This document shows positions 1,154 through 29,666 of a stretch of DNA of 37,850 nucleotides, piece after piece. Every line of letters starts with the position of its first letter. The stretch's first letter is position 1. The notes under the pieces are model-generated. The model searched no databases and was not told where the DNA came from. It saw only the letters and a program-made list of their open reading frames with translations. The DNA is from a virus: the IMG/VR virus record IMGVR_UViG_3300026097_000687, positions 1-37,850 of that record, one strand, 5' to 3'. Position numbers and translations under genes: made by a program.

Positions 1154-1655
1154 GGAAGATTTCGAAAAACACATACGTTCGGTCAAAATAAATGATACCT
1201 TTTCAAACACGATAAAGGTAGATACAGAACGTTATAAAGAATTTAAGAATACACAGGAATATGAAATTTATAAAAAATATTATGATGGGAAAGCCATAAC
1301 AGGTTCTATTGTTTTAAATCTTTTTGGTCTTATTGATAGGAGTGTTAAGGACATTGATATAATAGATGATGGTATTTATTGTTTCAACTATAATCATGTT
1401 GACCACTATTCCATAAAACCAAATATAGCGTATCGAGGTTCAATTTGCCACACTATGAATACTTGGTTCAGTATGAGTGAATTCTATGTAGATGTATTTC
1501 ATGATAACAATAAGCCTAAAATAAAATATAAAGATTTGGTATTGGACCAACCACTGGAAATATTGAAAATGAAATATGAACTCATTGAAAGCAATCCCAA
1601 ACACCTAGATGATATACGAAAGGTATTTTATGAAATGTCGGTCGATTTAATTTAA
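1137..1655 (+). CDS. Nucleotidyltransferase-fold-like hypothetical protein
   Basis: The 172-residue product contains GSIVLNLFGLIDRSVKDIDI at about 56-75. This is the GS...hDhDh arrangement of the polymerase-beta-like nucleotidyltransferase superfamily, also seen in AbiEii-type toxins and many large-phage proteins. The second acidic strand typical of the fold could be EFYVDVFHD (about 118-126). The C-terminus (PLEILKMKYELIESNPKHLDDIRKV) resembles the helix that follows the catalytic core in AbiEii-like proteins, where residues such as R, K and D often occur. The nucleotide and target are unknown. It overlaps the preceding gene. I am moderately sure of the fold and unsure of activity. Confidence 0.6.
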   Translation: MMEISKEDFEKHIRSVKINDTFSNTIKVDTERYKEFKNTQEYEIYKKYYDGKAITGSIVLNLFGLIDRSVKDIDIIDDGIYCFNYNHVDHYSIKPNIAYRGSICHTMNTWFSMSEFYVDVFHDNNKPKIKYKDLVLDQPLEILKMKYELIESNPKHLDDIRKVFYEMSVDLI

Positions 1656-1715
1656 TATTCATTAAATTAATTTGGATGTAACTAAACATTGTAATTGTTT
1701 GGTTATATAACACAC

Positions 1716-2120
1716 ATGACTATTTTTCTCGATTTTGATGGAACCGTAGTAGAACACTGCTACCCAAAAATAGGTAAGATAAACCCCGGGTCTTTCAAAG
1801 TTATCAATAAATTACACAATGCTGGTCATAGGATAGTTCTAAACACATATCGTGCAGATTGTGCTGATGGTACGAAAGAAGAGGCAGTAATGTTTATGAA
1901 TAACTGCCCATATTTAGATTTTAACATATTGGAAACCACTTCTTTAAAGAAACCACCACCCCAATGGGAAAATCCAAATCCATCTAACATACTTATGTAT
2001 ATAGATGATAATTCAGTTGGGATCCCAATGAGGGATGGTTTCCATGTGGGAACAAAAATGGTGAATTGGGAGGAATTGGATAAACTATTTGAGAAAAATG
2101 GAATATACAATATGAATTAA
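1716..2120 (+). CDS. HAD-superfamily phosphatase-like protein
   Basis: The 134-residue protein starts MTIFLDFDGT, giving HAD motif I DxDGT with Asp6 as the expected nucleophile and Asp8 as acid/base. IVLNTYR (about 43-49) fits motif II, and a late acidic pair in MYIDDNSVGIP fits motif IV, where Mg2+ is held. It has no sizeable cap insertion, like small C0-type HAD phosphatases common in phages. The substrate is unknown. I chose the ATG at 1716 over an upstream TTG because it places the DFDGT motif at the usual distance from the N-terminus. Confidence 0.75.
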   Translation: MTIFLDFDGTVVEHCYPKIGKINPGSFKVINKLHNAGHRIVLNTYRADCADGTKEEAVMFMNNCPYLDFNILETTSLKKPPPQWENPNPSNILMYIDDNSVGIPMRDGFHVGTKMVNWEELDKLFEKNGIYNMN

Positions 2121-5503: not shown

Positions 5504-5679
5504 CAAATAAAGACCGAGAGGATTTGTTTCAGTTAAAGCACAATCAATTCGCTGGAACAATCGGAGCAGACCAACGCGCAAGGTTTGAAAAGGCGTTTGA
5601 GTTGAAGTACAAAAAACCACTTGTAACTATGTGGACTTGTTCTTCATGTTTAAGGACATTAGCTAAACAACTATTATGA
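5485..5679 (+). CDS. Hypothetical protein (64 aa)
   Basis: This small protein contains DREDLFQLKHNQFAGTIGAD and ends CSSCLRTLAKQLL, with a CxxC pair near the C-terminus. It overlaps its neighbours on both sides, including an ATGA overlap with the glycosyltransferase gene, which supports it as a real gene. The function is unknown. Confidence 0.55.
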   Translation: MENDVLTNKDREDLFQLKHNQFAGTIGADQRARFEKAFELKYKKPLVTMWTCSSCLRTLAKQLL

Positions 5680-6452
5680 TATTTACACTACTATACAACA
5701 ACTACCACGTAATCAAGCGAAGCCTTACAAAGCTACGTGAAACTAATACGCTTAATTTGCCAATTGTTGCGGTTGATAACGACTATCCATTTTTGACCAA
5801 AGCACACAAGACAAGGCTGAAGAATCAGTTTGACCTTACAATAATTGGAGAAGTAGAAAACAGAGGTCTTGCGGGTGGTTACAATGAGTTGATTAACGCA
5901 TATTCTGAATTAGATTACGCTATCTTATACGACTGTGACAGCAACCCTGAAACGATAGGCTGGGATGAAGGTTTGATGGATATAATCAAATCACCTGACA
6001 TTGCCTATGCTTCGCTTATGTTTGATACTGCTAAACGCGAAATGAAAGAACGAGGTTTCACGCCTATTCAAGTTGGTAAGCACGTAGTATGGAAACCTAA
6101 ACAGGCGTGCGTTCAATCTGTAAGTGTTGCCGACCTGAACTACCTTCGTTCAATTGGTGGGATGCAAGAGCCTAAGAAATATTACGGTGGTCTTGAGTCT
6201 ACAATGTTCAAGTATTGGAACGACCAACACAAATTGGTCTACCTTGATGGGTATTACGAAACCCAGCTAAACCAAGATGATGACGTTGATGAAGTGTATA
6301 TTAAATACAAGTGGGATTACGCTCACAAAAGGTATAACGGAACTTTTGAAGATTTTATAGAAAGTCAAGAAACGGTATGTCTTGCTAATGGAAAAACGTT
6401 TCAAAATGGGTTTGTTCCAAAAGGAGAAAGAATTAGTGCAATGGGTTATTAA
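5676..6452 (+). CDS. Family 2-like glycosyltransferase (GT-A fold)
   Basis: The 258-residue protein has GT-A/GT2 landmarks: an N-terminal strand and loop ending in VAVDND (31-36), NRGLAGGYN (62-70) for nucleotide-sugar positioning, and YDCDSN (85-90) as the DxD-type metal site. A GGLESTMF segment in the acceptor half fits the family. It would transfer a sugar from a nucleotide donor, in the cytoplasm. The acceptor could be host surface glycan precursors, phage DNA or virion proteins; the sequence does not decide. It lies two genes before a NeuD-like acyltransferase and close to a second glycosyltransferase (8908), which suggests a shared glycan pathway. Confidence 0.8.
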   Translation: MIFTLLYNNYHVIKRSLTKLRETNTLNLPIVAVDNDYPFLTKAHKTRLKNQFDLTIIGEVENRGLAGGYNELINAYSELDYAILYDCDSNPETIGWDEGLMDIIKSPDIAYASLMFDTAKREMKERGFTPIQVGKHVVWKPKQACVQSVSVADLNYLRSIGGMQEPKKYYGGLESTMFKYWNDQHKLVYLDGYYETQLNQDDDVDEVYIKYKWDYAHKRYNGTFEDFIESQETVCLANGKTFQNGFVPKGERISAMGY

Positions 6453-6489
6453 TATGACTTACGATTTGAACAAATAGAAAAACATAAAA

Positions 6490-6756
6490 ATGAAAAACAT
6501 AAAAATGAAGAAGATAAAACTTGGGTTAAAAGCAAGAGACAAAGTAACTGGTTTCGAGGGAATAATAACGGCTAAGGTTAAGTATCTAACGGGTTGCGAC
6601 CAATACTGCATAAAGCCAAAGGCAGAAAACGGAAAGGTTTTGGAAGGTTACTATTTTGACGAGGGAATGATTGAAATAATAGGAGACGGAATAAGCGCAA
6701 AGAAGGTCGCGGGAAAAAAGAAGGGGGGTGCACACTTAGACGTTCCTTCATCTTAG
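6490..6756 (+). CDS. Conserved phage hypothetical protein (88 aa)
   Basis: Residues about 10-62 (GLKARDKVTGFEGIITAKVK, then GCDQYCIKPKA and YYFDEGMIEII) match a family I know from many phages: a small beta-barrel-like protein with 'DKVTGFxGI' and 'GCxQY' motifs, of unknown role. The C-terminus is a lysine-rich tail (KKVAGKKKGG). The start is ambiguous because CATAAAAATGAA occurs twice in tandem, giving ATGs at 6490 and 6505; either puts the conserved core in frame. Confidence 0.7.
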   Translation: MKNIKMKKIKLGLKARDKVTGFEGIITAKVKYLTGCDQYCIKPKAENGKVLEGYYFDEGMIEIIGDGISAKKVAGKKKGGAHLDVPSS

Positions 6757-6760
6757 AAAA

Positions 6761-7336
6761 ATGAATAACCTTGCAATAATAGGGCATGGTGGCTTTGCTA
6801 AAGAGGTAGCTGCATGGGCTTCGCGCACTTACGTTTGTTCGTTCTACGTGGAAAATGAATACGCGGGAAACGGTGCGCTACCTCTATCCAAGTTAGACAC
6901 TAATCACAAGGTAGTTATTGCAATAGGTGACCCGAAAACACGCAGAAGGATAGCGGAACAGCTACCAAAGGAAACAAACTACGCAACGTTGATACACCCA
7001 TCAGCACAGATAATAGATAACAAGGACACGTACATTCACAAAGGGTCTATCATTTGTGCTAACGTAGTTATAACGAATGACGTTGTAATTGGTGAACATT
7101 CACACATTAACTTAGGCGCAACTATTGGTCACAATTGCCGTATTGGTAAGTTTAACACGTTATCACCTTCTGTAAATGTATCGGGCAACGTTACTACTGG
7201 TTCGTGCGTTTACTTAGGTACTAATTGCGCGATAAAGGAAAAGATGAACATAACGTCAAACGTCACTATTGGAATGGGTTCTACTGTTATTGGTGATGTG
7301 ATGGAGTCAGGTACTTACGTTGGACTGATTAAATAG
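6761..7336 (+). CDS. NeuD/PglD-like sugar O/N-acyltransferase
   Basis: The 191-residue protein has the two-part NeuD/PglD layout. An N-terminal Rossmann-like domain starts NNLAIIGHGGFAKEVAAWA and reaches VVIAIGDPKTRRRIAEQL. A left-handed beta helix of hexapeptide repeats follows from about residue 75 (IHPSAQI, VVITNDVVIGEHSHINLGAT, IGHNCRIG, GSCVYLGTNCAI, NVTIGMGSTVIGDV). The His in the HSHINLGATIGHN region is the likely catalytic base. Relatives acetylate sialic acids or bacillosamine precursors using acetyl-CoA. In a phage it probably modifies a glycan made with the adjacent glycosyltransferases. The exact substrate is unknown. Confidence 0.85.
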   Translation: MNNLAIIGHGGFAKEVAAWASRTYVCSFYVENEYAGNGALPLSKLDTNHKVVIAIGDPKTRRRIAEQLPKETNYATLIHPSAQIIDNKDTYIHKGSIICANVVITNDVVIGEHSHINLGATIGHNCRIGKFNTLSPSVNVSGNVTTGSCVYLGTNCAIKEKMNITSNVTIGMGSTVIGDVMESGTYVGLIK

Positions 7337-11367: not shown

Positions 11368-12581
11368 TGGCAACAGTAATATACAACCAACCCGAACGCT
11401 ACGGACTTGCATACAACGACAACCCGTATGTGATTAGGTCACTCGCATACACACCAACGCAACGATTCAAGATTAGCGTAGTTACACCTTCTCTACAAGA
11501 GGTATCAACGCAGTTGATCTATCCACGTAGAGGTGTTTCATTGCAAGGTGTACCGAATGATGATAGGGCATACTTCGACCCGTCAAGGATATTGCAAAGC
11601 CAATTAGGTAGCTGTATTGCCATTCCTGAAGCTAACCACGCTGGTTACTTTGATTGTCCAAATATGGCGTTTGACTACGCTTTATCTATTCGGGAGCAGG
11701 ACAAGGTTAACGGGGTTTACATTGACGGTGACTTGACATTTACAGACGTTAAAACGGTTTGGAATGGAGGTGTAAACACTGTTGATTGGTTAGACTTTGA
11801 CTATACTGATTACGATATTGACACAGGAAGCGGAAACAAGTTTCTCACAAATGCTCCAAACGTTCAGTATATTGATAGCAATCAAAGTGCGTTTCTTTAT
11901 TTGCTAGGCTCTAATACTTCAAGTTTGAAGTCAGTAAGGATTGAAGGGTTTGATTCTAATGGTTCAAGTTTGGGCGTTGCCCAACTTAACTACACGGCTA
12001 ACAACAACTTCAATTATATTCCTGTTGGAACTTACGACATCAATAATGCAGACCCTAGCAATTGGTCGCAAGACCCAGCTAACGTCATTTCAGGCGCGGC
12101 ATATTATGAAGTTACAGAAGCTGGTAGCGAAAAAATTACATTCAAGATAAACCAACGATGTTCTAAATATGAGCCTATCCGTTTACATTGGCTTAATCGT
12201 TTGGGTGGTTACGATAGCTTTAATTTCAGTCTGAAGTCAATGGAAGAAACGGACATTGATAGACGAAGCTACCATCAGCAACATCACATATTTACGGGGC
12301 TGAAGTGGGATTACACTAAAGATAGTAGAGGTGTGACAGACTACCACGTTGGCACTCAACGAAAGCTAACGGTCAACACGACTTTTCTAACTGAAGAGGA
12401 ATCTATTTGGATGGAGGATTTCGCAACATCTCCGATAGTGTATCAAGAGGTAAACAATGAATTGATTGCAATGTCGGGTATGCCGAAAGCGATTGACAAG
12501 CAAACAAGTTTGAACGACAAGCTGATGCAGTACACATTTGAACTAGACTACTCATTAAACGATATGCGACAACGTGGCTGA
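11367..12581 (+). CDS. Putative tail structural protein (404 aa)
   Basis: The 404-residue protein is rich in Tyr, Asn, Asp and aromatic beta-strand patterns (SLAYTPTQRFKISVVTPSLQ; AYYEVTEAGSEKITFKINQR), as is typical of virion proteins. The C-terminal part (about 260-400: KYEPIRLHWLNRLGGYDSFN, QRKLTVNTTFLTEEESIWME) matches tail proteins of Bacteroidota phages in my reading, where the LHWLNRLGGYD motif recurs. Its precise role (distal tail, baseplate hub or tube) is not determined. It overlaps the next gene by 8 nt. Confidence 0.6.
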   Translation: MATVIYNQPERYGLAYNDNPYVIRSLAYTPTQRFKISVVTPSLQEVSTQLIYPRRGVSLQGVPNDDRAYFDPSRILQSQLGSCIAIPEANHAGYFDCPNMAFDYALSIREQDKVNGVYIDGDLTFTDVKTVWNGGVNTVDWLDFDYTDYDIDTGSGNKFLTNAPNVQYIDSNQSAFLYLLGSNTSSLKSVRIEGFDSNGSSLGVAQLNYTANNNFNYIPVGTYDINNADPSNWSQDPANVISGAAYYEVTEAGSEKITFKINQRCSKYEPIRLHWLNRLGGYDSFNFSLKSMEETDIDRRSYHQQHHIFTGLKWDYTKDSRGVTDYHVGTQRKLTVNTTFLTEEESIWMEDFATSPIVYQEVNNELIAMSGMPKAIDKQTSLNDKLMQYTFELDYSLNDMRQRG

Positions 12582-15411
12582 GGTATTGATAGAAGGTAGA
12601 AGGTTGGACGTAAAGGAGGGGCTAGACTTTTCCTTCAATTACTCTATTGCGGATATTCGCGACCCGAACAAGAGAAAGACCAATTTCAGTAAGACTATCC
12701 AATGTCCAGCAACTAAGTCAAACGATGTTCTGTTCGGGCAGATTTGGGATGTGAATATTTCCAACAGCTACAACCCTAGTGATACCAATGTAGAGGTCAA
12801 TTTTAACCCGAACAAGAAAGCATCTGCAAGGGTTATACATGATGGGGTTACGGTAATGGACGGTGTGGTTCAATTAAGGGCGATAACAATAAACAACGGT
12901 CGTTACGATTACGAGGTTGTGTTTATTGGGAATTTGAAAACAATATTTTCAGAGATAGCGAACAAGGAATTAAACGGACTTGACGAAAACGGATTTCCTT
13001 ACATTGACTTTTCAGACCTTGACCATCAATACGATTACGGGCGCATAACTTCAAGCTGGAACAATACAAGCGGCTACGTTTACCCAATGATTGACTATGG
13101 AGTAAATGAACCGTTTCAGCTTAATGGTGTAGATTCGTGGAGAGTTGAGCAGTTTAGACCCGCAGTATTTCTCAAAGACATTATTGATAGAATCTTTGAC
13201 TATGCTGGATTTACATACACTAGCACGTTCTTTGATTCTACGTTTTTCGGCAATTTAATAGTGCCGTGGACAAATGAGGGTTTTGTTGTTTCTGAATCTG
13301 AGATAGCGATAAGGGAAACAACCGCAAGTGTTCAAACACCCATAGATGTTAACGTTGAGTTTTTCCCGAACTACCCTATATTTGGAAACACAATATACAA
13401 TTGGCGCATTGACTTTGACCAATTAGTTGACCCGAATAACAACTGGTCAAACGCTAATGATGAATACACAGTACCCGAAAATGGGTTTTATTCTTTTGCT
13501 ACTCAGCTAACATACATTAGTGAGCGTGTAAGTATTACGGGCGTTCCTGTTCCTTCGCCAAATCCTATAAACGTGTTGTTTGCTTATGTAAGGTTCAGAC
13601 GATTGAGCGTTTCAAGTGGTCAAGACACAATCATATCAGAGCAGTTAGTTGACTTTAGAGGTAGTGGAACACCTCTTATCGGTGAAACTTTTTCAGAAAC
13701 CGTTGCGCTTTCTTGTCCTTCAATACAATTAGATGAGGGCGATACGGTGTACATGGAGGTACTTGGGCTGTCAGGCGGTCTGACGGGCTTGGTAAACTTT
13801 GAAATAGACATTACTGCGGGAACGTTTCAATCGCAAGTATCTAACGAAACAATAGTACAGGGTCAAACGATACCAATGAACGCACTAACTCCAAGCGTTG
13901 AAATGGAGGAGTTGTTGATTTCGGTTTTCAAGATGTTTAACCTATTAGTTGAGATAGACAAAACCAATGATACTAATCTGCTAATTGAAACGCGCGACAC
14001 GTTCTACGCAAACGGAGAAATAAAAGACTGGACAAATAAACTTGCTAGAGATAGAAAAATTCAGTTAAAACCAACCGCATCAATTTCAGACAAGTTGTAT
14101 AGATACACGTACACCGAAGATGATGACTACGACAACCAAAAGTATCAAGGGAAGTATCAAAGAGTTTACGGTGATGCTAGGGTAGAGGTTGATAACGATT
14201 TTGTTAATTCTGAAAATGATGTAGAGGTTGTCTTTTCTCCAACTGTATTGGTAAACGACAGGAACTCAAACAGAATCGTTGGTAGAATTTACGCTGAAGA
14301 TGTTGAGGATGGAATCGAGCAAACAGACCACAACATTAGAATATTGTATTGGGGTGGGTTAATACCATCTCAACCGCAATGGAATTTCAGATACATTCAG
14401 GAAGGTTTAGGTGCTGTTGATGTGCTTCAACATTTCTACCCTTACGCTGGACATTGGAACAATCCGATAACTCCAACAACGGATATAAATTTTGGGCTTA
14501 TCAAAGAGTTGAGATACACGGCAAATGGATATACGGGAACGCTGCAAGTAACGAACGCGAATTTATTTAACGTGTATCATAGGGCTGAGTTTTTAGAAAA
14601 GACGGACAAGGACGCTAAAATAATGGAAGGTCATTTCTACCTTGATGCTTTCGATATTGAAAAGCTAGACTTTCGCGACCAAATACTAATTGATAACACC
14701 TATTGGAGATTAAACAAGGTCAACGATTACAATCCGTTTAAGGATGGATTGACTAAGGTAGAGTTATTCAAGGTACTTGACATTATACCGCAAGAAGTAG
14801 AAACCTCTATTGTGGGTCAAAACAACACAATCAACGATTCAAACGAGGAAGTGCGTGTTCCTTTTGGCAAATCGCTAAAGCGGTCAAGTAACGTTTACCC
14901 TGATTTCGTTGGAGATGTCAGAGGTAGTAACAATCGGGTAGGTTACGGTTCGGCTGATTTCAAGATAGTTGGAGATGAAAACCAAGTAGGCGAAAAGACA
15001 AAGAACATAACCATACTAGGGAACAATAACACGGTTTTGGCGGGGCTTGAAAACGTTGTGATAATCAACTCCGACAATCAAGAAGTAACTGAAAGCAACA
15101 CTACAATAATTGACGGTAAAAAGCAATGGTCAACAGTAGAAACAGATGTTGACTACTCGGCAAGTGATAGAGATTTTGTTCTTGCAGATTCGTCTAAATC
15201 CGCGCCACCTGTTACAATAACACTACCAACACTCTCAGAAGGTCTTTGGGTGTGCGTTAAGAAGACAGATGCAACAGCAAGTAATGTAGATATAACATCG
15301 GGCGTTAGCGGCACTATTGATGGAAGCGGCACATATTCGTTAACCACTCAATACGATTCTGTTGAGTTGTTCTGCGATGGTTCTAATTGGTACATAAGAA
15401 GCGATAAATAA
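12574..15411 (+). CDS. Large tail tip/fibre-like protein (945 aa)
   Basis: A GTG start at 12574 overlaps the end of the previous gene. The N-terminus (RRLDVKEGLDFSFNYSIADI, then RKTNFSKTIQCPAT) matches a family of large tail proteins of Bacteroidota phages. The middle is beta-rich. From about residue 740 the protein changes to short Asn/Gly/Val repeats (VGQNNTINDSN, RGSNNRVGYG, VGDENQVGE, ILGNNNTVLAG, VVIINSDNQEV), consistent with a small beta helix. The end is a compact domain, VTITLPTLSEGLWVCVKKTD to VELFCDGSNWYI, a type found at the tips of phage fibres. It probably combines tail structure with host contact. Confidence 0.65.
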   Translation: MAEVLIEGRRLDVKEGLDFSFNYSIADIRDPNKRKTNFSKTIQCPATKSNDVLFGQIWDVNISNSYNPSDTNVEVNFNPNKKASARVIHDGVTVMDGVVQLRAITINNGRYDYEVVFIGNLKTIFSEIANKELNGLDENGFPYIDFSDLDHQYDYGRITSSWNNTSGYVYPMIDYGVNEPFQLNGVDSWRVEQFRPAVFLKDIIDRIFDYAGFTYTSTFFDSTFFGNLIVPWTNEGFVVSESEIAIRETTASVQTPIDVNVEFFPNYPIFGNTIYNWRIDFDQLVDPNNNWSNANDEYTVPENGFYSFATQLTYISERVSITGVPVPSPNPINVLFAYVRFRRLSVSSGQDTIISEQLVDFRGSGTPLIGETFSETVALSCPSIQLDEGDTVYMEVLGLSGGLTGLVNFEIDITAGTFQSQVSNETIVQGQTIPMNALTPSVEMEELLISVFKMFNLLVEIDKTNDTNLLIETRDTFYANGEIKDWTNKLARDRKIQLKPTASISDKLYRYTYTEDDDYDNQKYQGKYQRVYGDARVEVDNDFVNSENDVEVVFSPTVLVNDRNSNRIVGRIYAEDVEDGIEQTDHNIRILYWGGLIPSQPQWNFRYIQEGLGAVDVLQHFYPYAGHWNNPITPTTDINFGLIKELRYTANGYTGTLQVTNANLFNVYHRAEFLEKTDKDAKIMEGHFYLDAFDIEKLDFRDQILIDNTYWRLNKVNDYNPFKDGLTKVELFKVLDIIPQEVETSIVGQNNTINDSNEEVRVPFGKSLKRSSNVYPDFVGDVRGSNNRVGYGSADFKIVGDENQVGEKTKNITILGNNNTVLAGLENVVIINSDNQEVTESNTTIIDGKKQWSTVETDVDYSASDRDFVLADSSKSAPPVTITLPTLSEGLWVCVKKTDATASNVDITSGVSGTIDGSGTYSLTTQYDSVELFCDGSNWYIRSDK

Positions 15412-17779: not shown

Positions 17780-18028
17780 ATGAAAAAGCTAGTATTTATA
17801 TTATCGGTTGTCGTTTTATCTTCTTGCTCTAATGAGAAATCAGAAGTTGCTGGATGCTGTAAAACAGTTGTTGACGTTCATAGTGAAATAACTATGGAGT
17901 CAGGCTACATTGGTCAAACAGAGTGGTTTGCCACAGAGCGAGATTGTCAAGGCAACATATCAGAACGTTTTTTGTATCGCGGTTCTACAAGACCACAAGT
18001 TTATATCGGTGATGTGAATTGCGATTAA
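17780..18028 (+). CDS. Small lipoprotein
   Basis: The 82-residue product from ATG 17780 begins MKKLVFILSVVVLSSCSNEK, a lipoprotein signal peptide with lipobox LSSC and the lipidated Cys at residue 16. The mature part has several cysteines (AGCCKTVVDV, RDCQGN, DVNCD). The frame extends to a TTG at 17732, but only the ATG at 17780 gives the signal sequence. A near-match to the -7 element (TATATTAG, 17768-17775) sits just upstream, so it may have its own near-leaderless transcript. Phage lipoproteins often act in superinfection exclusion; that is only a possibility here. Confidence 0.75.
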   Translation: MKKLVFILSVVVLSSCSNEKSEVAGCCKTVVDVHSEITMESGYIGQTEWFATERDCQGNISERFLYRGSTRPQVYIGDVNCD

Positions 18029-18033
18029 ATCAC

Positions 18034-18041
18034 TATATTTG
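18034..18041 (+). promoter_or_regulatory. TAnnTTTG element, first small transcript
   Basis: TATATTTG is an exact match to the -7 consensus, 6 nt after the lipoprotein stop. A transcript starting a few bases downstream would run about 70-75 nt to the terminator at 18096-18123. There is no clear TTG at the expected upstream spacing. Confidence 0.5.
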
Positions 18042-18047
18042 TTTCAT

Positions 18048-18123
18048 CTCTAGCGCATAGTTGTTTTTTCATAGATTGTGATTGGTTAGTAAAATGCCCC
18101 TGTTATGCGCGGGGGCTTTTTTT
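18048..18123 (+). ncRNA. Candidate small RNA 1 (about 75 nt)
   Basis: This segment lies between a TAnnTTTG element and a strong terminator and has no plausible ORF. Its 5' part contains GCGCATA (18053-18059), the exact complement of TATGCGC (18104-18110) in the terminator loop, so the RNA could form a pseudoknot that either stabilises or blocks termination. The 5' end is inferred from the promoter position only. Confidence 0.4.
18096..18123 (+). terminator. Intrinsic terminator 1
   Basis: GCCCC (18096-18100) pairs with GGGGC (18112-18116), and seven Ts follow (18117-18123). This is a standard GC stem with a T-tract. Confidence 0.85.
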
Positions 18124-18126
18124 ATG

Positions 18127-18134
18127 TACTTTTG
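18127..18134 (+). promoter_or_regulatory. TAnnTTTG element, second small transcript
   Basis: TACTTTTG fits TAnnTTTG and starts three bases after the T-tract of terminator 1. It would launch an RNA of about 60 nt ending at terminator 2. Confidence 0.45.
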
Positions 18135-18139
18135 TTTCA

Positions 18140-18199
18140 GCCCGTTTCGGGTAGTGGGTTGTCCTCACTTTAGCCGTTGCAGAAATGTAGCGGCTTTTT
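18140..18199 (+). ncRNA. Candidate small RNA 2 (about 60 nt), complementary to the downstream leader
   Basis: This segment lies between the second TAnnTTTG and terminator 2. It starts with a CCCGTTTCGGG hairpin. GTGGGTTGTCCT (18154-18165) is complementary over 12 contiguous positions, with one G-U pair, to AGGACAACCCGC (18254-18265) in the long leader. The segment can also fold on itself (GTGGG with CC-CAC) and so may present part of the match in a loop. It has no ORF. Confidence 0.4.
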
Positions 18200-18201
18200 T
18201 T
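18172..18201 (+). terminator. Intrinsic terminator 2
   Basis: AGCCGTTGCA (18172-18181) pairs with TGTAGCGGCT (18186-18195) over 10 bp, with two G-U pairs and a GAAA-type loop. Several Ts follow. This is a strong intrinsic terminator. Confidence 0.85.
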
Positions 18202-18202
18202 G

Positions 18203-18210
18203 TATATTTG
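18203..18210 (+). promoter_or_regulatory. TAnnTTTG element for the scaffold/capsid transcript
   Basis: TATATTTG directly follows the T-tract of terminator 2. A TTG lies 23 nt upstream inside the terminator stem, a loose spacing. It would start a transcript near 18216 with a leader of about 350 nt ahead of the scaffold gene. Confidence 0.55.
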
Positions 18211-18215
18211 CATTA

Positions 18216-18571
18216 AATACAGTTCGGTGTTAAGAGAGTTGACCGAATGTGGAAGGACAACCCGCGAAAAACCTCAACCATATTTGAAGTATTGTAAAGC
18301 CCTAATCCATGCAATGACGTCCTACTGTCAACATGGTCAATAACGCATCCATTCTACGGGTGATGAAATAGTAAGGGGTGGTTTATATGCCAAGCTGGGC
18401 GGAAGGTTCGGGGAGGCAGATTTAGAGTTTCCGTAGGTTTAACTCTATTGAGGATGTATAAACCCTAAGTGCTTACCAAACACGTCTAACAAGGATGCGT
18501 GAATAGAGTAGGTGTATCTAAAAATTAACACTTACAGTCCAGTTTATATTTAGTAGATATAAACAAGACAA
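18216..18571 (+). ncRNA. Long structured leader or noncoding RNA upstream of the scaffold gene
   Basis: About 355 nt without a plausible ORF but with nested complementary arms. The pairs are TTCGGT/ACCGAA (18223-18228 with 18242-18247); CCATG/CATGG with TGAC/GTCA inside (18307-18336); ACGCATCC/GGATGCGT (18343-18350 with 18493-18500); GTAAG/CTTAC (18371-18375 with 18472-18476); GGTTTATA/TATAAACC (18380-18387 with 18457-18464); TGCC/GGCA (18388-18391 with 18415-18418); TAGAGTT/AACTCTA (18423-18429 with 18441-18447); AGGTGT/ACACTT (18510-18515 with 18528-18533); and GTTTATAT/ATATAAAC (18542-18549 with 18557-18564), seven bases before the ATG. CCTCAA (18272-18277) and TTGAGG (18448-18453) could make a long-range contact. 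The nesting supports a genuine branched RNA. I found no group I intron core, tmRNA or RNase P signature. Confidence 0.6.
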
Positions 18572-20227: not shown

Positions 20228-20746
20228 ATGTCGTGTCCATTAACACAAGGATTTACACTAGATTGCAAAGAAGCTATTGGCGGTATTAAGTCAGTACGGT
20301 TTGCAACTCTATCAGACTGGGAAAGTTTAGACCCATCATATTCAACAGGCGCGGTGACATTCGGTTCAGCTTCGGCAGTATTTTACAAATATGAGTTAGA
20401 TAAAGAAGAATCTAGCTTTAACGATAACCCAACTGCTGGAAGTAACAAAGGCACTCTTTACTATATGCCTGACATTACTTTCATATTGTCAAAGTTGGAC
20501 GTTGCGAAACGCAACGAAATGCAGTTACTTGCTAAGAATAGATTGGTTGCAATTGTTGAAACACGCGAAGCAACACCGAGTTATTTTGCACTTGGTCAAA
20601 CGAACGGTTTAGACTTTTCGCAAGGTACAGGAGCAAGCGGTACGGCTGCGGGTGACCTTAACGGTTACACGATGACGTTCAATGGTATGGAGCCTGACCC
20701 GATGGTTGAGGTTTCAAGCGGTGACCTTGCTAGTATAACGAATTAA
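20228..20746 (+). CDS. Structural protein, possibly tail tube
   Basis: The 172-residue protein begins MSCPLTQGFTLDCKEAIGGI and continues with VFYKYELDKEESSF, LYYMPDITFILSKLDVAKRN and a late GYTMTFNGMEPDPMV. This belongs to a virion family I recognise from Bacteroidota phages, placed near the capsid gene. Its length, strand-rich pattern and 'LAKNRLVAIVETRE' centre would fit a tail-tube-like fold, but a capsid or neck role is not excluded. Confidence 0.6.
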   Translation: MSCPLTQGFTLDCKEAIGGIKSVRFATLSDWESLDPSYSTGAVTFGSASAVFYKYELDKEESSFNDNPTAGSNKGTLYYMPDITFILSKLDVAKRNEMQLLAKNRLVAIVETREATPSYFALGQTNGLDFSQGTGASGTAAGDLNGYTMTFNGMEPDPMVEVSSGDLASITN

Positions 20747-20846: not shown

Positions 20847-21296
20847 ATGGCAACAAGTATAACAGCAGCAGATTTAACGGTAACGATTACAGAAAGCGTA
20901 ACACTAGCGGGTTCAGACAGAGGTTCAACCGCAACGCTAACTATTTCAGACGTAACCGAAGTTGATAGCAGAATAGTAAACGTAGGAACGGCAGAAACTG
21001 ACATTATCGGTTTTGGTTCTGCAAACGGTCAAGGTTCATTCGTTAGAGGTGATGTTAAGTACATTCGCATCACTAACAAGGATGACACTAACTACGTAAC
21101 TTTGGGAATGTCAAAAACTGGAGCAGATACTTTCTTCATCAAGTTAGAAGCTGGCAAATCAATCATGTTTGGTAACGATGACTTAGAGGTTGATGCTTCT
21201 GGTGGTGCTTCTTCTGCATTTGTAGAAGCTGACAACATTAGCGCAAAGGCTAACGGAGCGGCTGTTGATTTAGAATACTTTGTCGCTCTCACTTGA
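20847..21296 (+). CDS. Putative minor structural or decoration protein (149 aa)
   Basis: The 149-residue protein is rich in Thr, Ser, Ala and Gly with short strands (ITAADLTVTITESVTLAGSD, KYIRITNKDDTNYVTLGM, GADTFFIKLEAGKSIMFGND). It has no enzymatic motif. The composition and the IKLEAGKSIMF segment resemble small capsid-decoration or fibre-associated proteins. It begins just after a strong terminator, so it likely has its own promoter, which I could not identify. It overlaps the next gene by TTGA. Confidence 0.5.
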   Translation: MATSITAADLTVTITESVTLAGSDRGSTATLTISDVTEVDSRIVNVGTAETDIIGFGSANGQGSFVRGDVKYIRITNKDDTNYVTLGMSKTGADTFFIKLEAGKSIMFGNDDLEVDASGGASSAFVEADNISAKANGAAVDLEYFVALT

Positions 21297-28638: not shown

Positions 28639-28851
28639 ATGCAAGCATTTACAAGTGTGTCAATTGAGTTGGATTCTAAAGATTTATTTTCAGCTATTCA
28701 AAAAATATCCAATGACATACACAATCTAAAAATAAAGCCGAAAAACATTGTGCTTGACACTTGGGTAGATTATCAACCATTGATTAACGGTAAGACTTTG
28801 GTTTGGTACTATTGCGATGTGCTTGACGAAATACAAACGAAAGTGATATGA
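28639..28851 (+). CDS. Hypothetical protein (70 aa)
   Basis: This small protein contains FTSVSIELDSKDLFSAIQKI and a C-terminal VWYYCDVLDEIQTKVI. The family is unknown. It overlaps the exonuclease gene as ATGA, which suggests it is translated with it. Confidence 0.5.
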   Translation: MQAFTSVSIELDSKDLFSAIQKISNDIHNLKIKPKNIVLDTWVDYQPLINGKTLVWYYCDVLDEIQTKVI

Positions 28852-29666
28852 AGTTATTGAACTTTGAAATGCCGCCTGATGGGTTTAAACGCCTATTCTA
28901 TGACATTGAAACTTCACCAAATATCGGTTTCTTTTGGTCAAGTTCTTACAAGGCGAACATACCACATGACAACATAATAAAGGAAAGGGCGGTTATCTGC
29001 ATCTGTTGGAAGTGGGAAGGTCAGGATAAGGTTTATAGCGTAGAATGGGAAAAGGGTTGCGATAAAGCAGCCCTTAAGCGTTTTATGGAGGTTGCTTTAA
29101 CGGCTGATGAATTAGTAGCACACAATGGCGATAACTTTGATGAGAAGTGGATTAGAACACGCTGTTTGATACATGGTATTGATTGCCCTCCACGCTTGAA
29201 CAATTACGACACGTTAAAGAAAGCGCGTTCACATTTTCGGTTTAACTCGAACAGACTTGACTACTTGGGTAAGTTATTCTTTGGCGAAGGGAAAAGCCCC
29301 GTTGGTTTCCAAGACTGGGTTGAAATAACTTTGAACAATTGCAGCGAAGCAATGGACAAGATGGTGAAATACTGCAAACAGGACGTTCGATTGCTTGAAG
29401 ATGTATTTCACAAGTTGCAACCATACGTTGAGCATAATAGACACGTTGGAGCGCATACGGGCTACGGGCGTTTCTCATGTCCTAATTGTGGTTCTGAGGA
29501 TTCTGTTTATCGTAAAAAACGACACACGAAGTCAGGCATTTTAAAACACCAGCTTCAATGTAAGTCTAAGAAATGCGGTCGCTACTTTACCATTTCCAAT
29601 AAGGTATTTGAGGAAAAGATGAAGAACGACTGGTCTAAATCACAGCAGACCAACACCAAAGGGTAA
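28848..29666 (+). CDS. DnaQ/RNase H-fold 3'-5' exonuclease with zinc ribbon
   Basis: The 272-residue protein has the DEDD exonuclease motifs: Exo I FYDIET with Asp19 and Glu21; Exo II in ELVAHNGDNFDEKW with Asp98; and Exo III YCKQDV with Asp179. After the domain comes a Cys4 zinc ribbon (Cys211 and Cys214, Cys238 and Cys243) with a basic linker, which probably binds nucleic acid. It resembles the exonuclease domain of family B DNA polymerases without a polymerase domain. The likely role is DNA end trimming for recombination or proofreading, given ERF and other recombination genes downstream. Confidence 0.8.
   Translation: MKLLNFEMPPDGFKRLFYDIETSPNIGFFWSSSYKANIPHDNIIKERAVICICWKWEGQDKVYSVEWEKGCDKAALKRFMEVALTADELVAHNGDNFDEKWIRTRCLIHGIDCPPRLNNYDTLKKARSHFRFNSNRLDYLGKLFFGEGKSPVGFQDWVEITLNNCSEAMDKMVKYCKQDVRLLEDVFHKLQPYVEHNRHVGAHTGYGRFSCPNCGSEDSVYRKKRHTKSGILKHQLQCKSKKCGRYFTISNKVFEEKMKNDWSKSQQTNTKG

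Follow-up and report, generated by a model that had tools for sequence, protein, structure and literature searches.

What could a phage encode between a small lipoprotein gene and its scaffold gene, in an interval where no open reading frame of at least 50 aa is found? The locus (18029-18571) lies in a window of 37,850 nt, the whole stretch of viral DNA analysed here (IMG/VR record IMGVR_UViG_3300026097_000687, positions 1 to 37,850). An earlier note, made from the letters alone, had described it as free of ORFs and read it as two promoter-sRNA-terminator units, followed by a promoter and a leader running into the scaffold and capsid genes. The elements behind that description are present: TAnnTTTG occurs at 18034, 18127 and 18203, both terminators (at 18096 and 18172) were confirmed, and the complementary arm pairs that we looked for sit where they had been placed. 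As single-sequence signals, however, they do not exceed expectation. The window holds 47 TAnnTTTG sites where 43.6 are expected, terminator-like sites do not outnumber those of shuffled sequence, and the folding energy of the leader is not significant against shuffled sequence (z -0.98), which also holds for folding energy alone in the homologue from contig L004. The locus stands above chance because of its conservation among homologues and the strong covariation described below. Its parts are as follows.

18096-18123, + strand: intrinsic terminator, from terminator prediction; not conserved in the module homologues
18127-18134, + strand: promoter-like TACTTTTG, 4 nt 5' of the sRNA, from a motif scan
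18139-18201, + strand: sRNA of about 63 nt with putative ends, made of hairpin AGCCCGTTTCGGGT, a recognition hairpin, and a terminator hairpin with U run
18154-18168, + strand: sRNA recognition hairpin GTGGGTTGTCCTCAC, whose first 12 nt pair with 18254-18265
18172-18201, + strand: sRNA terminator hairpin with U run, from terminator prediction
18203-18210, + strand: promoter-like TATATTTG for the long RNA, conserved by most homologues in the interval from terminator to long RNA
18223-18515, + strand: long structured RNA of about 293 nt, delimited by conservation among homologues
18223-18247, + strand: 5' hairpin of the long RNA (TTCGGT...ACCGAA), followed by the target hairpin; from covariation
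18249-18265, + strand: target hairpin GTGGAAGGACAACCCGC, whose AGGACAACCCGC (18254-18265) pairs with the sRNA
18283-18308, + strand: block TTTGAAGTATTGTAAAGCCCTAATCC, invariant in the window, L004, L036 and L035
18307-18336, + strand: core hairpin H-A, loop with CCTACT (18321-18326), from the core alignment
18343-18350, + strand: 5' arm ACGCATCC of closing helix H-B, partner of 18493-18500, from the core alignment
18351-18492, + strand: less conserved middle domain with helices GGTTTATA/TATAAACC, TGCC/GGCA and TAGAGTT/AACTCTA
18493-18500, + strand: 3' arm GGATGCGT of H-B, from the core alignment
18501-18515, + strand: conserved 3' tail GAATAGAGTAGGTGT, whose AGTAGG (18507-18512) is able to pair with the H-A loop

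Related contigs were found through the major capsid protein. In L004, the homologue of 18223-18515 is 91.2% identical to the window, as compared with 72.6, 69.0 and 75.5% for the protease, scaffold and major capsid protein genes and about 62% for the flanks of the long RNA itself. The same RNA lies elsewhere in L036 and L035, in a gap whose neighbours correspond to window genes 20228-20746 and 20847-21296. Further carriers, namely L120, L124, L125, L126, L160 and the distant L123/L127, came from searches that used short conserved sequences. Altogether, ten distinct versions of the long RNA were found, all in metagenomic phage contigs and some of them closely related; no homologue appeared in named phages or plasmids, nor when 84,980 bacterial and archaeal genomes were scanned once for an exact pattern. 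The carriers are probably phages of Bacteroidota, a host group read solely from the promoter type.

Not all of the locus belongs to this conserved unit. The first of the two proposed promoter-sRNA-terminator units (18034-18123) is not seen in L004 or the other homologues and had to be given up: the stretch is probably the 3' region of the lipoprotein gene (17780-18028) with its terminator, 18096-18123 being most likely the terminator of that gene and lying outside the conserved RNA module. At the other end, the promoter-leader layout found support, with the extent of the leader corrected, since the conserved RNA stops near 18515. The hairpin GTTTATATTTAGTAGATATAAAC at 18542-18564, immediately 5' of the scaffold start codon, has counterparts in L003, L005 and L006 and on that comparison is part of the 5' region of the scaffold gene.

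The structure of the long RNA was scored over a core made of hairpin H-A, the closing helix H-B (about 8 bp) and the pseudoknot between the H-A loop and the 3' tail. In an alignment of nine sequences, 99.0% of the cells hold standard pairs and two-sided changes number 23, against 6.4 in shuffles; the alignments used for these pair counts were trimmed by hand and exclude the variable middle, which favours structure somewhat. None of 500 column shuffles reaches any of five covariation measures, and no slid control comes near. When L160 is added by hand, 227 of 230 cells are paired and two-sided changes rise to 27, and a core covariance model built without L160 retrieves that sequence at 41.2 bits. 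The 3' tail AAUAGAGUAGG is nearly invariant and complementary to CCUACU of the H-A loop; the resulting pseudoknot (CCTACT/AGTAGG), which the earlier note had not described, is paired in 50 of 50 cells and is suggested by this invariance together with one A-U to G-U variant. Outside the core, the 5' hairpin (18223-18247) varies with compensation in L035, L120, L124 and L160, and the middle domain shows two-sided changes among six homologues, including in helices that had been named beforehand. Covariation thus goes beyond both column shuffles and slid controls, and Rfam gave no match at the gathering cut-off over the window. On this comparative evidence, 18223-18515 is a conserved structured RNA absent from Rfam. 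The claim of an undescribed RNA-dense locus was borne out, and of the outcomes that the earlier note had named as refuting it, neither a lack of covariation nor an Rfam hit to an RNA of settled role was observed.

These data bear on what the long RNA could encode. In type I toxin-antitoxin systems an adjacent sRNA bearing a short cognate complement is known, and by analogy the long RNA would be a toxin mRNA silenced by the adjoining sRNA. We regard this as very improbable, given that eight homologues show no conserved peptide frame across the long RNA and that its helices covary throughout. A peptide encoded in the leader was likewise rejected for want of a conserved frame.

The unit at 18127-18201 (promoter-like TACTTTTG, hairpin, recognition hairpin and terminator) has counterparts 5' of the long RNA in nine phages, so that the second of the proposed promoter-sRNA-terminator units survives as a conserved sRNA-like unit. 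TACTTTTG (18127-18134) apparently acts as the sRNA promoter; TAnnTTTG or TAnnTTTA is similarly placed before the sRNA in the window, L125, L126, L035, L036 and L120. The terminator carries a compensatory change, from GCCG/CGGC in the window to GCCC/GGGC in L004. In addition to what had been noted before, the long RNA contains in its 5' part a complement to the 5' arm and loop of the recognition hairpin; in the window, 18154-18165 matches 18254-18265. The matching segments (sRNA/leader) are:

Window: GTGGGTTGTCCT/AGGACAACCCGC
L004: GTGGGTTCTCCT/AGGAGAACCCAT
L035: GTGGGTTTGCCT/AGGCAAACCCGC
L036: GTGCCTTGCC/GGCAAGGCAT
L124: GTGCCTTTCC/GGAAAGGCAC
L120 and L126: GTTCCTTGCC/GGCAAGGAAC
L125: GTTCGTTGCC/GGCAACGAAC
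L160: GTCCTTTAGCAAGT/ACTTGCTAAAGGGC

The 12-bp match of the window is unremarkable alone, and its strength comes from the comparison among phages. Despite differing sequences, all 83 pairs are kept over eight phages, and only 2 of 40320 permutations are equally good, both of them trivial; L160, a ninth phage, keeps 14 of 14. Predicted cognate duplex energies lie between -22 and -26 kcal/mol; most cognate duplexes surpass the non-cognate ones, some of which are also strong. As judged from these comparisons, the sRNA/leader complementarity coevolves. In most phages the target site can itself form a small hairpin, and therefore the contact between sRNA and long RNA is probably loop to loop. Two recognition hairpins are present in each of L035 and L036, and the one that fits the leader is not the same in both.

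If transcription read through the whole unit, this complementarity could instead act within one molecule, which weakens a reading with two separate RNAs. A single transcript of about 380 nt would then use the recognition pairing to switch a conditional terminator, as an attenuator does. In this regard, the partners lie on the same strand, about 80-130 nt apart with the terminator in the interval, and the recognition hairpin and the long-range pairing are mutually exclusive. We nevertheless hold an attenuator to be improbable: the long-range pairing encloses the terminator and does not disrupt it, promoter-like elements are conserved 3' of that terminator, and in L035 and L036 the leader fits just one of the two recognition hairpins. 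With promoter-like elements before both RNAs and a terminator between them, two transcripts are favoured. TATATTTG (18203-18210) would be the promoter of the longer one, whose 5' end probably lies a few nt before 18223.

The reading that we prefer, at somewhat less than an even chance, is that of a mobile two-RNA cassette in which a same-strand antisense sRNA represses a structured cis leader of the genes downstream. The sRNA (about 63 nt) would be made from its own promoter and stopped at its own terminator, and the long RNA (about 293 nt) would start at the second promoter and read on into whichever gene comes next. The recognition hairpin of the sRNA would kiss the target hairpin, close to where the long RNA begins, and may open into a duplex of 10-14 bp, making the sRNA a trans-acting antisense repressor encoded on the same strand as its target; the long RNA, in turn, would act in cis as a structured leader and license the downstream genes at the level of transcription or stability. 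Because specificity differs from phage to phage, each cassette would control itself and closely matching co-infecting phages. RNA structure, coevolving complementarity and changing genomic position are apparent in the sequence comparisons; we infer two separate transcripts, action in trans, repression as the sign of control and output through the leader.

The output through a leader finds support in the nine phages inspected. A start codon follows the long RNA by about 20-70 nt in all nine, no terminator-like signal was seen by eye in between, and therefore the long RNA is probably read as a 5' leader. Other observations sit less well with repression of a leader by the sRNA. The genes downstream are non-homologous between carriers, a poor fit to specific regulation; in the distant homologue L123/L127 no sRNA can be recognised and the neighbouring genes run on the other strand; and the strength of some non-cognate pairs weakens the case further. 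Antisense immunity of this kind is best known from lysogeny, of which there is no sign here since neither integrase nor resolvase was found in 16 records. A more far-reaching possibility is RNA-only arbitration or immunity between phages by a transferable cassette. Its kissing sRNA would diversify and recognise leaders of its own type alone, with no protein partner. We consider this unlikely; phages of the same type would then interfere in co-infection, and those of other types would not.

The surroundings of the module vary widely. The gene after the long RNA is the scaffold gene in the window and L004, a 149-aa late gene in L035 and L036, an S78-type protease gene in L124 and a ClpP-like protease gene in L120; in L126 the RNA is followed by a small gene (73 aa) and a glycosyltransferase-like one, and in L125 and L160 by other genes again. 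Sites without the module were seen in L028, L030, L043 and L089, and the module is missing from most relatives that share the head genes. A role tied to the scaffold and capsid genes or to packaging, as the earlier note had proposed, finds no support on either count, the same RNA preceding protease, ClpP-type protease, tail-region and other genes. A DNA-packaging RNA, or a packaging or recombination site in the DNA, accords with the location among head genes in the window and is the least probable of the readings, as the position varies, most relatives carrying those head genes do without the module, and the covariation follows RNA pairing, G-U included.

An all-against-all protein comparison found no protein common to all carrier phages, and only two proteins of the L125 phage have matches in the window phage. 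The core model is positive in only 2 of 32 searched records and found nothing in the other 30, relatives of similar length included, bearing in mind that records may be incomplete. The varied positions, the partly unrelated phages and this sparse occurrence make the module look like a mobile, moron-like RNA cassette, proteinless and, as the distribution suggests, horizontally transferred. A mobile non-coding moron would widen the known range of phage exchange.

Such a distribution also gives room to the main rival of repression by the sRNA, namely that the long RNA is a free-standing non-coding RNA with a job of its own and a host partner, for which the downstream gene is irrelevant. This non-coding moron could bind host ribosomes or RNA polymerase, for example, or form an RNA assembly, with the sRNA as its structural partner or dose controller. 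The structure stays constant while the downstream genes change, and L123/L127 sits between genes on the other strand; as no phage protein common to all carriers was found, the RNA probably has either a host partner or none. On the other side, no terminator is seen 3' of the long RNA in the nine phages and the next gene is always close and co-directional in them, an arrangement that packed late operons make likely anyway. We rate the free-standing RNA as a rather unlikely reading.

Returning to repression of a leader by a cognate sRNA, the closest parallels are the c4 RNA of phages P1/P7 and the CI RNA of satellite P4, which originate upstream on the same strand as their target. The sRNA described here is likewise complementary to a downstream RNA of the same strand, in the 83 of 83 pairs over eight phages and the 14 of 14 of L160. 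The c4 antisense RNA acts on ant mRNA and underlies P1/P7 heteroimmunity (PMC12197685); like these systems, the module would involve a phage-encoded, type-specific antisense RNA with complementary segments expected in loops (PMC12197685). Unlike them, it has no match to the Rfam c4 model (RF01695), either at the gathering cut-off or at E<=5, it lies among late genes with no integrase or resolvase in the 16 records rather than in the immunity/antirepressor operon of a temperate phage, and its target is a conserved structured RNA of 293 nt, not an ordinary mRNA start. By analogy, the module may work like c4 or P4 CI RNAs while standing outside those families.

In the plasmid copy-control pairs CopA/CopT and RNAI/RNAII a small inhibitor kisses a structured leader, with specificity that differs between relatives, and the present module resembles them in its kissing hairpins, its small inhibitor facing a structured leader and its relative-specific match. 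Those inhibitors are transcribed from the strand opposite the target, making complementarity automatic, whereas both RNAs are here on the + strand, as judged by terminator and promoter-like elements, so that complementarity must be maintained by coevolution; no replication gene follows the module. RNA-RNA specificity that arises from coevolution and not from overlapping strands is uncommon, and here the cognate fit of the sRNA covaries across partly unrelated phages.

No protein partner is known for GOLLD and ROOL, large structured RNAs of phages in which kissing loops matter (PMC12286853). The long RNA is alike in these respects. It differs in being much smaller, in having a cognate sRNA encoded beside it and in giving no Rfam match in the window at the gathering cut-off; GOLLD and ROOL often lie near tRNA islands, whereas the window holds no tRNA. 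The 35-nt model of DUF805b RNA (RF02914) describes a hairpin followed by AAaAGAGUAGGcA, resembling H-B and the 3' tail, and this is where its top match lies in all of the nine carrier records. All scores, 13.2 bits in the window and 23.6 bits in L127 among them, fall below the 35.6-bit gathering cut-off, two non-carrier phages score similarly to carriers, and the model has neither the H-A hairpin nor the sRNA. The structured RNA would represent a family new to Rfam and did not turn up in the collections of named phages, plasmids and genomes that were scanned. FopS sRNA (RF04319) was rejected, as it reached 24.1 bits against a cut-off of 56, only over 18061-18126 (E=0.27). An antisense role against a recombination gene was discarded as coincidence: several 16-mer matches occur in coding sequence of other phages, and the ERF gene of the window has no complement.

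Several further observations concern the neighbourhood and exchange of genes in these phages. In L003, a close relative, a different insert of about 500 nt occupies the place of the RNA (1330-1830, minus strand) and folds unusually well (z -3.3); visual inspection raised the suspicion of a group II intron, but the insert had no Rfam match. In L029, L031, L093, L096 and L101 the gap between protease and scaffold genes holds other inserts, apparently small genes on the opposite strand, and the gap is apparently an insertion hot spot. The window encodes a complete translation initiation factor IF3 with both Pfam domains (219-734), which was not found in the 15 other phage records tested; a scan of the genome collection for a clue to the host gave one remote match only, and a link between the RNA module and phage IF3 was dismissed because no IF3 was found in the other carrier records tested. 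ClpP-like protease, glycosyltransferase-like and hexapeptide-transferase-like genes lie at 2139-2876 and 5676-7336 of the window. Small Cys-rich lipoprotein genes occur in the window (17780-18028), L004 (2807-2998), L031 (about 5600-5790) and L160 (about 1818-2030). Their position varies: the L031 gene lies elsewhere, the other three directly 5' of the RNA module, and they possibly represent a surface moron that travels with it. Finally, an RNase H-like/PolB exonuclease-like protein encoded at 28848-29666 of the window is 83% identical to that at 11825-12634 of the L125 record, an otherwise barely related RNA carrier, and is the product of another transferred gene.
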